Origin: Thermosipho japonicus | GTDB taxonomy: Bacteria; Thermotogota; Thermotogae; Thermotogales; Fervidobacteriaceae | Reading direction: 5' to 3' | Length of the DNA: 64,000 nt | Assembly: GCF_014201655.1 (NCBI RefSeq) | Contig: NZ_JACHEX010000001.1 | Coordinates: forward strand, 549,751-613,750 | Shown here: positions 34,544 to 43,395 of the stretch, in pieces | How the letters are laid out: every line of letters starts with the position of its first letter | Position numbering within the stretch: the first letter of the stretch is position 1 | Made by a program: the position numbers and the translations under genes | The notes under the pieces: generated by a model | Seen by the model: only the letters and a program-made list of their open reading frames with translations | Database searches by the model: none | What the model was told of the DNA's origin: nothing

Positions 34544-35065
34544 ATGATAGGAACCCATCCCTATGTTAAATGGGCTATTAAAGTTATTGAAAATTATATC
34601 TTACACTCAAAAGTAATAGAGCCCGATCCAAATTCTCTTCCAAAAGAACTTTTTGAAAAAAGAGCTGGCTGTTTTGTTACTTTACACACCAAAAATGGTA
34701 ATTTAAGAGGCTGTATAGGAACATTTGAACCTACTCAAGAAAACCTTGCATTTGAAATAAGAAACAATGCAATTGCAGCTGCCTCTCAAGATCCAAGATT
34801 TCCACCTGTATCAAAAGAAGAACTCAACAACATAGTAGTATCTGTTGATATATTGAGCGAAATTCAACCTGTATCTTCTATCAGCGAACTTGATCCTAAA
34901 AAATATGGAATCATAGTTGCAAAAGGATTTAGAAGAGGTTTGCTCTTACCAGATATAGAAGGGGTAGATACTATAGAAGAACAAATAAGAATTGCAAAGC
35001 TAAAAGCTGGAATTTTTGATGATGACTTTAAAATATTTAAATTTACAGTTGAACGATACCATTAA
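34544..35065 (+). CDS. AMMECR1-domain protein
   Basis: A 173-residue protein of the AMMECR1 family. Seen: the diagnostic LRGCIGTFEP motif (around residue 56) with its conserved Cys, NAIAAASQDPRFPPVSKEEL, and GLLLPDIEGVDTIEEQI. In many bacteria it is fused or linked to MEMO and radical SAM proteins ('AmmeMemoRadiSam'), with unknown chemistry; here neither partner is adjacent. The ribosome site GGAGGTGAT is strong. Its last four bases overlap the end of the convergent HD-GYP gene, and no terminator separates them. Confidence 0.88.
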   Translation: MIGTHPYVKWAIKVIENYILHSKVIEPDPNSLPKELFEKRAGCFVTLHTKNGNLRGCIGTFEPTQENLAFEIRNNAIAAASQDPRFPPVSKEELNNIVVSVDILSEIQPVSSISELDPKKYGIIVAKGFRRGLLLPDIEGVDTIEEQIRIAKLKAGIFDDDFKIFKFTVERYH

Positions 35066-36747
35066 TTTAAGTATATTTCATTCCATATTTTTTCTATTTC
35101 CTTTTCATATCTTTTAAAAACTTCTAAAACCTCTGGTGCAAAATGCGAAGGCTGTGTTCTTCCGTCACCTTCTAATATAATTTTCATAGTCTCTTCATGA
35201 GTAAAGCTTTTCTTATATGGTCTTTCTGAACGCAATGCGTCATATACATCAACAATATGAGTAATCATCGCCTCAATTGGTATTTCTGCTTTCTCTAAAC
35301 CATATGGATATCCTGTCCCATCATAATTTTCATGGTGATAAAGTGCAATATTGCGCGCAGTTTCAAATTGCTCTTTATCTCCTATCAATCTTGCACCATA
35401 TATAGTATGTTTTTTCATTTCTTCCCACTCTTCTTCTGTTAATTTCCCTTCTTTCAATAAAATATCACGTGGAACAAATATTTTACCAATATCATGAAGT
35501 GGTGCATAATAACGTATATTATTAACAAAATCACTAGAAAATCCAAGCTTTTCAGCAACAAATGCTGATAGAATTCCTACTCTTTCTATGTGATTCCCTG
35601 TGTTTTCATCATAACCTTCTGCGATCATAGCAAGTTGAGAACTAAAATCAATATAAGCTTGTTCTAGTTCTTTATTGATTTTTTCTATTTCTAAATAACT
35701 ACTTTCCAACTCTTGGTTTGTAGCATTTAATTCTTGCATATAAGCAATTAATTCTTCTGCCATTAAAGAATATTGTTTTACTATTTCATTTATTTCGTCT
35801 ATTTTAAAACTAAGGAGTTTTTGCTTGTATAATTCCTTTTTTTCTTTAAATTGCTTCATGTTATTAATTAAAACATTAAGATCTTCCGTTATATCTTTAG
35901 AAATTCTAACTGAAAGTTTATAAATAATTAACAATGAAATCATAACAAAAATGACAGCTAGAAATACAAAAAAATAAAATACTCTAAAAACAAATGAAAA
36001 ATTGAAGGAAATTTTCAATATCATTGGTCCAAAAATACTATGATCATCTTTTATAACTACAGGATAAAAAACTTCATAGTTTTCCCTGTCTCTAGCTATT
36101 TTATATTCTTCATTTCTACTAACTATTTCATTAAAATGGTCAGCAATAAATCTATTAATTTTCCCATTGAGTTCTGCACCATTTTCAGAGTAAAGTTCAA
36201 TCGAATTGATAAAAGAATATTGAATGTTTAAATCTCTCAACTCTTTAAAAAAATCCTTTAATATTGTTGTTGGAAGTTTCATGAAAAGCAAATAAACTTT
36301 TTCCTTTACTCTAATATACAATCTATTCTCAAAATATCCACTACTTATATTTTTCACTGAATAATAAGTTATCTGATCTTTTCCAAGATTTTTTCTCAAA
36401 GTTCTTGGTATTTTATTTATATCTAATTCTTCAAAATAAACATCCTTGAAATAATAAGGTGCTCTTGCAAATAAATATGTTAGGTACTCTTCAAAATTCT
36501 CAGGATTGTTTTTAATATTTAAGACAGTTTCATCAATTTTTCTTTCAAAACTATAACTAACTTCCTGAATAGTCCTATTTAATAGCTCTAAACTAATCTT
36601 AACAAAGTTAGATGAAATATTTTGAAACTTTTTACCAATATTATTAACTATAATATACTCAAAAAAGATAAATATTGCAAACAAAATAACCAAACCTATA
36701 ATTACATATCTGAGAAATTTTTTCATAAAATATTTTTTAAAACTCAC
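35062..36747 (-). CDS. HD-GYP c-di-GMP phosphodiesterase with two-span sensor domain
   Basis: A 561-residue membrane signalling protein. Seen: a first span (residues about 12-34), an extracytoplasmic sensor of about 220 residues, a second span (about 255-280), a HAMP-like/coiled-coil linker (NQELESSYLEIEKINKELEQA), then the HD-GYP domain: NHIERVGILSA, LHDIGKIFVP, and HHENYDGTGYPYGL. These metal-binding residues are intact, so it should break c-di-GMP. GTG start behind GAGGTG; it overlaps the end of mutS by 11 bases. A Pel operon under likely c-di-GMP control lies 5 kb away. Confidence 0.9.
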   Translation of the reverse strand: MSFKKYFMKKFLRYVIIGLVILFAIFIFFEYIIVNNIGKKFQNISSNFVKISLELLNRTIQEVSYSFERKIDETVLNIKNNPENFEEYLTYLFARAPYYFKDVYFEELDINKIPRTLRKNLGKDQITYYSVKNISSGYFENRLYIRVKEKVYLLFMKLPTTILKDFFKELRDLNIQYSFINSIELYSENGAELNGKINRFIADHFNEIVSRNEEYKIARDRENYEVFYPVVIKDDHSIFGPMILKISFNFSFVFRVFYFFVFLAVIFVMISLLIIYKLSVRISKDITEDLNVLINNMKQFKEKKELYKQKLLSFKIDEINEIVKQYSLMAEELIAYMQELNATNQELESSYLEIEKINKELEQAYIDFSSQLAMIAEGYDENTGNHIERVGILSAFVAEKLGFSSDFVNNIRYYAPLHDIGKIFVPRDILLKEGKLTEEEWEEMKKHTIYGARLIGDKEQFETARNIALYHHENYDGTGYPYGLEKAEIPIEAMITHIVDVYDALRSERPYKKSFTHEETMKIILEGDGRTQPSHFAPEVLEVFKRYEKEIEKIWNEIYLN

Positions 36748-39947: not shown

Positions 39948-40427
39948 TTACCTATTTGAATTTATCTTAAGTAAAAAATAAAAAACTCCAACATACACAA
40001 ATATATCCCCTATACTAATTACGTAATATTCTCTCCATGGAAGCATAACTGGAATCCAATCTCCTAAAAATAATTTCCAAGAAAAGCTATCTACAACTAA
40101 ATGCCTCATACCAACAGGAAGATTAAACTTTTCAACCCAGCAACTTAAAACTGGCATTTTCCAATTATTAATCATCATAACAAAGGAATTTAAAATTGTT
40201 CCAATTGAAATTAATGAAAAACCAGGAATATGCTTGTTTAATATCAACAAAACAAGCAAAAATGCAAAAGAAAGTGGCATTAAAATTTCTCTATAGCTCG
40301 GAATCATTTGTAGTATAAAAGGTATGGGAAACAAATAAAAATATCTATAATTTCTTTCTATTACATGTTTAATCCTTTTCGTAAATATAGAAATCAAAAA
40401 AGCTATCAAGAATATATATACTATCAT
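39948..40427 (-). CDS. DUF5317-type small membrane protein
   Basis: A 159-residue integral membrane protein with about five spans. Seen: GTILNSFVMMINNWKMPV and HLVVDSFSWKLFLGDWIPV, which match the 'small conserved loop plus GDxIP' pattern of DUF5317 proteins from clostridia and Thermotogota. No catalytic motif is visible. Its ATG overlaps the HD-GYP stop by four bases (ATGA), so it is made together with that protein. A role as partner or target of the multi-pass HD-GYP protein is inferred from coupling only. Confidence 0.7.
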   Translation of the reverse strand: MIVYIFLIAFLISIFTKRIKHVIERNYRYFYLFPIPFILQMIPSYREILMPLSFAFLLVLLILNKHIPGFSLISIGTILNSFVMMINNWKMPVLSCWVEKFNLPVGMRHLVVDSFSWKLFLGDWIPVMLPWREYYVISIGDIFVYVGVFYFLLKINSNR

Positions 40428-41734
40428 ATACTACCACCCTCTATTAATTTTAAAAATATATTTACAATTTCAGGGTCAAACATGATACCCGCATTATCTT
40501 TTATAAACCCAATCGCTTGCTCTTTCGACCAAGCCTCCCTATATGGTCTATCACTTGTTAAAGCATGATAAACGTCTGCTATCATTAAAATTCTAGACTC
40601 TAACGGGATTTCTTCACCACTTATTCCTTCAGGATAACCCTTTCCATCCCATCTTTCATGATGATGTAAGACCCACTTTGCAACTGTATCTTTAAATTCT
40701 GTTATCTGACTTAAAATTTCATATCCTTTTTTTGGATGTTCTTTCATTATTTCGTATTCTTCACGGGTTAATTTTCCAGTTTTTGTAACTATAAAGTCAG
40801 GTATTCCAATCTTTCCAACATCGTGAAGAAGTCCTGCAATCTCTATCAAATTTAGCTCTTTATCTTGTATTCCTAGCTCCCTTGCTATTGCTACTGAAAT
40901 CTTTGCTACATTCTCTCCATGCCCAAATGTATAGCTGTCTTTTTCTTCCAAACTCTTTGCAAGCGCAGTAAGTAAATCAAGCTTTGCTTGCCTATATTTT
41001 GTCGCATAATAATTTCCAAGCTGTATTCCTATAATTGTAAAAAATGAGACAGGAATTGCAGAAATACCAATGAATTTATACAAAATGTAAACTATGAAAG
41101 TATTAATTGATGTTGAAAAAAGGTTAGTAAGTCTACCTTCACCTATTAGCATAAAAATAACATCTTTTGAAAATTGTTTATATAAAAGAGTTAAAAAAAT
41201 TAACACAAAAATAAGATTTGCAATAAAATAAACTACTGAAATCAGCGCAACTACAAAAGACGAAAATATTAAATTATTCTTTATAACATTTGGAAAAACA
41301 TTATATAATTTAAATGATAAAAAAATCAAAATACCAAGAATCGATACATTAAAAATAAAGTAATAATAATTTTTTGAAAATAAAACATTAGATCTTAAAA
41401 CTAAGAAAACTAAAAAAGGGATTATCAAGGCATTAGAAATATTTAAATGTATCGCCGACAAAACACTAACAATAAGCCCTGCACTTAAATACAAAGCAAA
41501 TTTACTATCGTTTTTTTCATCAAATTTATTTTCTAAAAAGGTTTGAAACCTTACAGGAATAAACTCAAAGAATAAAGAAAATAGGAAAAAAAGATAAAAA
41601 TCTATATTCGAATAATCAAATCCATATTTTTTAATAGTAAAGAACAATAGGGCCATATATATGGCCCCAAGAGCTAAAGTATATATATGAACCAAACCTT
41701 CTTTTAAATCTAAAGCTACACCTTTTTTCTTCAC
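40424..41734 (-). CDS. Multi-pass membrane HD-GYP c-di-GMP phosphodiesterase
   Basis: A 436-residue protein. The N-terminal 235 residues hold about seven hydrophobic spans (a MASE-like sensor), then ALAKSLEEKDSYTFGHGENVAKISVAIARELG leads into the HD-GYP domain: LLHDVGKIGIPD and HHERWDGKGYPEGISGEEIPL, with ADVYHALTSDRPYREAWS. All metal residues are present, so it should degrade c-di-GMP. GTG start behind TAGGTG. An extended -10 promoter lies at 41774-41782. Upstream on the same strand is a 35-codon peptide gene with no terminator between, so they may share a transcript. Confidence 0.9.
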   Translation of the reverse strand: MKKKGVALDLKEGLVHIYTLALGAIYMALLFFTIKKYGFDYSNIDFYLFFLFSLFFEFIPVRFQTFLENKFDEKNDSKFALYLSAGLIVSVLSAIHLNISNALIIPFLVFLVLRSNVLFSKNYYYFIFNVSILGILIFLSFKLYNVFPNVIKNNLIFSSFVVALISVVYFIANLIFVLIFLTLLYKQFSKDVIFMLIGEGRLTNLFSTSINTFIVYILYKFIGISAIPVSFFTIIGIQLGNYYATKYRQAKLDLLTALAKSLEEKDSYTFGHGENVAKISVAIARELGIQDKELNLIEIAGLLHDVGKIGIPDFIVTKTGKLTREEYEIMKEHPKKGYEILSQITEFKDTVAKWVLHHHERWDGKGYPEGISGEEIPLESRILMIADVYHALTSDRPYREAWSKEQAIGFIKDNAGIMFDPEIVNIFLKLIEGGSI

Positions 41735-41809: not shown

Positions 41810-41917
41810 TTACTTACCACCTTTTAAAGGCCACAAGGTCAAGTTACCTACTGTTGAAATTACGAATGGAAGTGCTACCAATGCAAAAACTACCACCTTT
41901 TTCCAAATTTTTTTCAT
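41810..41917 (-). CDS. Small hydrophobic peptide, 35 codons
   Basis: The minus strand reads MKKIWKKVVVFALVALPFVI, then STVGNLTLWPLKGGK and TAA. It has a basic start (KKIWKK), one hydrophobic stretch of about 17 residues, and a short polar tail ending GGK: the look of a signal peptide with a small mature part, or a one-span membrane peptide. A purine-rich ribosome site (GGGGGAAGGGAG) precedes the ATG, and a TTGACA/TACAAT promoter lies 65 bases upstream. No cysteine, so it is not an Agr-type thiolactone. It is too short for usual gene callers. It sits between a multi-pass HD-GYP gene and the Pel operon. Confidence 0.65.
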   Translation of the reverse strand: MKKIWKKVVVFALVALPFVISTVGNLTLWPLKGGK

Positions 41918-41988
41918 AACTCCCTTCCCCCTTTCCAAAGTTTTAGAATCGAAACCCATTATTATCACAATATTCATTTTCGTTATTT

Positions 41989-42017
41989 ATTGTAAAATTA
42001 ATTTACATTATTGTCAA
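41989..42017 (-). promoter_or_regulatory. Near-consensus promoter of the small peptide, with palindromic spacer
   Basis: TTGACA (42017-42012), 17-base spacer, TACAAT (41994-41989). The spacer region holds TGTAAA-N5-TTTACA (41991-42007), an inverted repeat between the boxes that looks like an operator. Confidence 0.7.
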
Positions 42018-42162
42018 CACAGCTATGGAATCTTCCAAAATTATTTTTCAACCATCTTCTGATATTATTTTAAAACATTTTAACCACTTTTTCCTAATAA
42101 AAATTGTAATAAAAGTATTATTTTTCTTAATTTTCTTTAAAAATTATTAATACAAGATTATT

Positions 42163-42192: not shown

Positions 42193-43395
42193 ATGGAAAG
42201 AAAACATTTATACAGCTTTCTTGAACTTTCAATAATAAATCTAATAATATTTATCCTTGATTTATTATTTAAAAACTATGGCTATATTACTGTAAACCCT
42301 AATCCCTATCTAATATTAAATTTATATGTTGCTATTAGATACGGAACAAATATATTCTTTGTTTCTGCAACATTGAGTACATTTTTTTACTTTTTATCTA
42401 TACATATTCAATATGGCCTAAACGTTTACTTAATTTTATTTTCTTGGCCAGTGTTAAAAATACCACTCTTCGTTCTTTCCCTCGGTTTTCTTATTGCGTT
42501 TTTTAGAGATAGCTACATTCAAACAATAAATGAACAAGAAGAAAAAATAAAAATACTTTCCAAAAAAATTGAAACATTAGAAGATACCATTAGAAAATAT
42601 GAAAATCTAACAAATGACTTGCAAAATAAGCTACTACTGGAAAATAAAGGTGTTTCCATATTTGTCGATAAGCTTAAAGACATTGAGTACAATAATCCAG
42701 AAGATATTTTTAATGAAGCTGTTGAATTAATTTATGATTTTATTGAAGCAAAAACAGTGTCTATATATACATTAAGCAATAACGACTTTTTAAGACTAAA
42801 AGTAAGAAAAGGCCCACAAATTCTTCCAAATTCTTTCCCTCTTGAAAAATCCAAAGTACTTTCAACCGCAAAAGATTTAGGCTTTGCCTCTGCTAGTATA
42901 TTATACCTTTCTAATATTGATATAGATTTTTCATTTGAGCCCGCCATGGCTTCAAAAATTGAACATATGGGAAAGATCTTAGGGTTTATAGTTATAGAAA
43001 ATATAGACCCTGAAAAAATAAACAAAAACACAGAAACATATCTTAAAATACTATCTGACTGGCTATCAAACATGTTATATGTTTCATCAGAGCTTGAAAA
43101 TCAAATAATTAAAAACGATATTGAAAAATTTAACTTTATTTTTGAAAAGATAGAAGAAAGGTTTGAAAGGTTTAAAATCCCTTATTCATTTATAAAAGCA
43201 AAGGTTAAAGAAATTTCTAACATAGAAAATATCAAAAAATTCATCCGCGAAACAGATTTTGTATTTTTTGACGAAAAAAATTCAGAATTAAAAATAGTTC
43301 TAACGTCATGTAATTCCATAGGACTAAAAAGAGTCCTAGATAAATTAAAAGATTTTAAACAAATAGAAATCGAGGAGGCATATACAAAAGAATGA
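42193..43395 (+). CDS. pelD: PelD-like c-di-GMP receptor of the Pel exopolysaccharide system
   Basis: A 400-residue membrane protein with the PelD layout. There are about four N-terminal spans (residues 10-105), a coiled coil (about 112-150), a GAF domain (about 155-290: DIFNEAVELIYDFIEAKTVSIYTL...GKILGFIVIENID), and a C-terminal degenerate GGDEF-like domain without a GGDEF motif. That last domain keeps RETD (Arg352-Asp355), matching the RxxD I-site through which PelD binds c-di-GMP. Binding should switch on polymer synthesis by PelF/PelG. The next gene overlaps by four bases (ATGA). The PelD assignment rests on layout, I-site and the following genes. Confidence 0.8.
   Translation: MERKHLYSFLELSIINLIIFILDLLFKNYGYITVNPNPYLILNLYVAIRYGTNIFFVSATLSTFFYFLSIHIQYGLNVYLILFSWPVLKIPLFVLSLGFLIAFFRDSYIQTINEQEEKIKILSKKIETLEDTIRKYENLTNDLQNKLLLENKGVSIFVDKLKDIEYNNPEDIFNEAVELIYDFIEAKTVSIYTLSNNDFLRLKVRKGPQILPNSFPLEKSKVLSTAKDLGFASASILYLSNIDIDFSFEPAMASKIEHMGKILGFIVIENIDPEKINKNTETYLKILSDWLSNMLYVSSELENQIIKNDIEKFNFIFEKIEERFERFKIPYSFIKAKVKEISNIENIKKFIRETDFVFFDEKNSELKIVLTSCNSIGLKRVLDKLKDFKQIEIEEAYTKE

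Follow-up and report, generated by a model that had tools for sequence, protein, structure and literature searches.

A peptide ligand encoded beside its receptor is a known kind of arrangement. In the SHP/Rgg, ComS/XIP, and Phr/Rap systems of Firmicutes, the pheromones are re-imported and bind cytoplasmic regulators of the RRNPP type. In the Agr type (AgrD-AgrB-AgrC), the peptide gene adjoins a polytopic membrane receptor, and in DSF/RpfC-RpfG, an extracellular fatty-acid signal changes the activity of an HD-GYP phosphodiesterase. Within the Thermotogota, peptide-based regulation has been proposed for TM0504 of Thermotoga maritima.

The locus described here lies in a window of 64,000 nucleotides from Thermosipho japonicus, where a 35-codon frame stands immediately upstream of a gene for a MASE9-HD-GYP protein. 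We favor, with moderate confidence, the reading that this frame encodes the precursor of a peptide signal or extracytoplasmic ligand for the adjacent protein. The locus resembles SHP/Rgg, ComS/XIP, and Phr/Rap in that a tiny gene with a hydrophobic or signal-peptide-like precursor adjoins the gene of the (here putative) receptor; in those systems the active part is the C-terminal 5 to 10 residues, and XIP, like the present peptide, has a tail that contains tryptophan. The neighbor, however, is here a predicted membrane c-di-GMP phosphodiesterase, and the arrangement occurs in Thermotogota and Gemmatimonadota. With Agr it shares a peptide gene beside a polytopic membrane protein, and the nearby DUF5317 protein could be a third, processing component, but no AgrB homolog is adjacent, there is no histidine kinase, and the output would be c-di-GMP. 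An Agr-type cyclic peptide was rejected: the peptide has no cysteine, its tail after VG has no serine, and the neighbors are the HD-GYP and DUF5317 genes. Compared with DSF/RpfC-RpfG, the candidate signal is a ribosomal peptide, and sensor and HD-GYP are joined in one polypeptide via MASE9.

The initial annotation of this DNA had also drawn a comparison with TM0504, which is unsupported in the form given. The T. maritima ortholog of our peptide, MRKLMKIVLVLGSLLGTLMAVVGGNQIW at G090:1478584, is a different locus, far from groES, and no related frame was found between the ABC permease gene and groES of that genome, where TM0504 would lie by locus-tag order. The tmRNA gene takes up most of this interval (G090:531684-532039, L143 5685-6040); if TM0504 overlaps ssrA, its published transcript changes may reflect tmRNA.

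The peptide gene, MKKIWKKVVVFALVALPFVISTVGNLTLWPLKGGK, occupies 41810-41917 on the minus strand (35 codons and a stop) and encodes a basic n-region, a hydrophobic segment, and the tail TVGNLTLWPLKGGK. The very strong Shine-Dalgarno sequence GGGGGAAGGGAG lies at 41920..41931, and G-rich Shine-Dalgarno sequences are also found at the peptide genes of relatives. Farther upstream, on the same strand, are a 5' UTR segment, ATATTGTGATAATAAT (41958..41973), that is the same or nearly the same in most relatives of family f1, and a predicted sigma-70-type promoter, TTGACA-17-TACAAT (41989..42017), which matches at 11 of 12 positions, was the joint-best match in the local promoter scan, and retains a similar form within f1. 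A candidate operator, the palindrome TGGAAGATTCCA (42026..42037, minus strand), precedes the -35 box by 8 bp. The peptide promoters of G000, G080, G082, and G085 all carry the pattern TGGAANNTTCCA-N8-TTGAC with constant 8-bp spacing; it has a single instance in G000, and the reversed-pattern control gave none. From palindrome to ORF the whole small gene spans 41810-42037 on the minus strand, while the interval first annotated, 41810-42017, covers the ORF with its 5' UTR and promoter. Outside f1, the 5' UTR of the peptide transcripts carries one to three AGCGRAG repeats between the promoter region and the Shine-Dalgarno sequence (f2, f11, most of f8, and Thermotoga; for example G090:1478502-1478550 in L100, and L108, L109, and L127), the background across the loci being 0.25 per kb on each strand. 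The triple repeat in G090 and G102 was found solely at the peptide locus, and the repeats had no match in Rfam.

A gap of 75 bp separates the peptide ORF from the HD-GYP gene, and the local scan found no terminator-like site before the HD-GYP start, in line with the initial annotation. A terminator-like hairpin, TGGGGCCATATATATGGCCCTA (41669-41648, minus strand), was seen only inside the HD-GYP gene, in the 5' part of its coding sequence, and could attenuate the transcript downstream of the peptide gene.

When 103 Thermotogota genomes were searched, close relatives of the peptide were found in the genus and family, and a 22-row profile extended these to the whole class. Genus pairs gave pN/pS values of 0.14-0.25 (pS 0.12-0.90, pN 0.02-0.14), and pooled values were 0.17 in f2, 0.25 in Thermotoga, and 0.27 in f8. 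The frame survived in relatives, where stops or frame shifts had been named at the outset as signs against it. Codon-level comparison thus confirmed the frame as a real gene, evidently under purifying selection, and the 35-codon gene with ribosome site and promoter proposed initially was borne out.

MASE9 was present in 42 of the 103 Thermotogota genomes. A peptide of the family was encoded just upstream on the same strand at 41 of 41 loci with upstream DNA, a tally read by hand from the searches that leaves out the 42nd locus (G101), cut by a contig end. The 41 include partial copies at contig ends (G081 and G084) and several peptides with a weak profile score or none, T. maritima among them, which were placed by position and anatomy; because the genomes are related, these loci are not independent events. 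Both peptide and MASE9 are absent from g2 and g3 of f1 and from g14 of f3, and among genomes lacking MASE9 a convincing peptide was found only in G065, 39 bp from a contig end. Under a fixed rule requiring a tryptophan within the last 11 residues, 36 of 39 Thermotogota loci scored, against none on the reverse strand and 1.0 expected from shuffles. As a control, 20 genes for HD-GYP proteins lacking MASE9 were taken from seven of these Thermotogota genomes; one or two weak frames attributable to chance turned up, and no family member was among them. The window locus follows the family plan: the peptide gene lies upstream on the same strand, and it has a strong Shine-Dalgarno sequence, a hydrophobic segment, and a tryptophan near the C-terminus (NLTLWPLKGGK).

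The same plan recurs in Gemmatimonadota with a different peptide. After a first MASE9 locus had come from a contig scan, whose other loci were all from Thermotogota, a MASE9 search of 150 Gemmatimonadota genomes gave matches in 64. Upstream DNA of 150 bp or more was available at 57 loci; the fixed rule found a hydrophobic micro-ORF with a strong Shine-Dalgarno sequence in 50 of these, and a tryptophan stood within the last three residues in 45; the reverse strand gave 0, and dinucleotide shuffles 0.4 expected. A second rule, fitted to Gemmatimonadota after the first matches had been seen, found a micro-ORF at 54 of 59 loci (mean 23 residues), with tryptophan last or second-last in 49. Beyond the shared plan, these peptides do not resemble those of Thermotogota. 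They average 0.6 lysine plus arginine residues and have no clear signal-peptide n-region, so that nothing clearly points to an export route shared by the two phyla. MASE9 is also present in Thermus composti, a control genome, and no MASE9 relatives were found on plasmids.

Taken together, the data strongly support the partnership between the peptide and the MASE9-HD-GYP protein that had been proposed from the window. The pairing with one sensor type in two phyla suggests that the peptide is a signal, or a built-in regulator, read by the sensor.

The candidate receptor is a predicted c-di-GMP phosphodiesterase of 436 residues with a GTG start (40424..41734, minus strand). Pfam models identified MASE9 (E 1.3e-33) and HD_5 (E 7.4e-42), and the HD and HHExxDGxGYP motifs are intact, as LLHDVGKIGIPD and HHERWDGKGYP. 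An AlphaFold model (mean pLDDT 80-82; 12-13 sequences) has about six membrane helices, so the multi-pass HD-GYP protein of the initial annotation stands, while its seven spans do not. Foldseek matched the model to HD-GYP structures with E values down to 8e-12. For MASE9, the best solved matches with meaningful probability were ECF S-components such as RibU; this match is weak, with a probability of up to 0.97 and a TM-score by target of up to 0.67 but E values of 0.5-6, and a sequence search of solved structures gave no credible match. ECF S-components bind their ligand from outside, which makes an outward-facing ligand site in MASE9 plausible on the model. The DUF5317 membrane protein (39948..40427, minus strand) overlaps the HD-GYP gene by 4 bp, an overlap retained in most relatives, and is absent beside MASE9-HD-GYP in f2. 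Its conserved polar residues (MPV, H, D-IP, and S-GD) suggest an enzyme or transporter, perhaps for peptide processing.

Selection is concentrated on the C-terminal tail. This evidence comes from relatives, since the window genome has one copy of the peptide. G087 has three copies, and G086 and G088 have two each; within a genome the leaders are 24-47% identical, and the last 8 residues are identical at 8 of 8 positions. The tail is LVGNVTWW in every G087 copy and LVGSITWW in both G086 copies, although the two genomes share a genus. The tail codons of the copies show only synonymous differences (2-6 in 27 nt), so that recent copying of the tail DNA does not account for the identity. Diverged leaders combined with identical tails that differ synonymously point to the tail as the functional part, and identity among copies would be expected if one receptor read the tail. 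The pheromone-like pattern, selection on a C-terminal segment that is identical among copies sharing one receptor, was thus seen in G086, G087, and G088.

Just before the tail there is a candidate cleavage site. Among 44 peptides, position -1 is occupied by G 43 times and by A once, and 42 have A, T, V, or L at position -3, a pattern that satisfies the usual signal-peptidase rule. Cleavage there would yield a pentapeptide in most genera and a product of 10-12 residues in f1; tails elsewhere are NIEVW, NLEWW, NVTWW, NMRWG, and similar, as compared with NLTLWPLKGGK here. Two genes in the genome match the peptidase S24/signal-peptidase-type family model.

We envisage that the N-terminal part (MKK...W... 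and the hydrophobic stretch) would serve as an export leader or anchor that puts the C-terminus outside, where the basic n-region implies that the tail should lie. The tail would be the active part, possibly freed when an enzyme of the signal-peptidase type cuts behind the VG motif, and may be read by the six-helix MASE9 domain. MASE9 would then raise or lower the activity of the cytoplasmic HD-GYP phosphodiesterase, thereby setting c-di-GMP, with the signal passing between cells or acting on its producer.

The same data can also be explained by a subunit that always stays anchored in the membrane. On this main rival to the precursor reading, the peptide would be a one-helix membrane subunit that binds MASE9 and adjusts how stable or active it is; it would neither be released nor signal between cells. 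The strict pairing, the immediate adjacency, the hydrophobic segment, and the short Gemmatimonadota peptides without a signal-peptide n-region are all what such a subunit would give. The duplicated genes, on the other hand, have a hydrophobic segment only 24-47% identical beside an identical tail, the opposite of selection for helix-helix contact, and tandem copies also speak against it. We consider this explanation unlikely, though it deserves serious weight.

It is improbable that the micro-ORF acts as a leader or arrest peptide, whose translation would control HD-GYP expression with the tryptophan-containing end working in the ribosome exit tunnel. Its place directly upstream, the conserved C-terminal end with tryptophan, and the 5' UTR repeats conserved outside f1 agree with such a switch, but tandem sets of two or three copies that share one tail would be unexpected for it, and these copies, together with the missing terminator between the two genes, make it less likely. 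Nor was there any Rfam element at the locus, and the hydrophobic composition of the peptide is kept despite sequence turnover. A toxin-like membrane peptide (a type I toxin or bacteriocin-like product) that stands beside the HD-GYP gene by chance would be small, basic, and hydrophobic, as this one is, and type I toxins also occur in tandem copies. We regard this as very improbable, however, as no convincing copy was found away from MASE9 genes, micro-ORFs accompany MASE9 in two phyla, and selection bears on the tryptophan tail. A random open frame without a product, for which nothing speaks but the small size and the absence of a Pfam or NCBIfam model, is refuted at the sequence level by the pN/pS values in the genus (0.14-0.25) and other groups (0.17-0.27) and by class-wide conservation, and we give it almost no credence.

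Returning to the precursor reading, we tentatively extend it, while thinking the extension somewhat doubtful: MASE9 may be a general peptide-receptor domain with an S-component-like fold, each MASE9-HD-GYP protein across phyla being gated by its own exported micropeptide ending in tryptophan. If true, a class of ribosomal-peptide signaling would be wired directly into c-di-GMP, with no kinase or cytoplasmic regulator between, and peptide signaling would gain two phyla, of which one is largely thermophilic. For most membrane HD-GYP proteins and other c-di-GMP sensors no ligand is known; in the present case gene order offers a candidate ligand for an entire sensor domain, and synthetic tails would be short, often five residues. 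Genes of this class can be missed by annotation pipelines, and no Pfam or NCBIfam model matches the peptide family. Neither the family libraries nor the literature searched contained a micropeptide family of Thermotogota and Gemmatimonadota that is linked to a sensor of the c-di-GMP phosphodiesterase type. This negative is weak, as the literature covered was that outside subscription journals; it also had nothing on TM0504, MASE9, DUF5317, or HD-GYP together with a micropeptide.

On the divergent side of the window locus, PelF and PelG were identified in the Pel operon that the initial annotation had recognized. A specific link between the peptide and Pel, as then suggested, did not hold: among the loci examined, pel genes are divergent only in genus g1, the rest of f1 differs on that side, and the cassette occurs phylum-wide with other neighbors, an engB-like frame lying upstream of it in f2 and Thermotoga. 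The first divergent gene (42193-43395), taken initially as a likely c-di-GMP receptor, had no PelD model match and a sub-threshold GAF_3 match (E 0.045), so that this role is plausible by anatomy only. Finally, the genome has 15 HD_5 (HD-GYP) matches, and a second such gene in the window, at 35062-36747, lies beside mutS.
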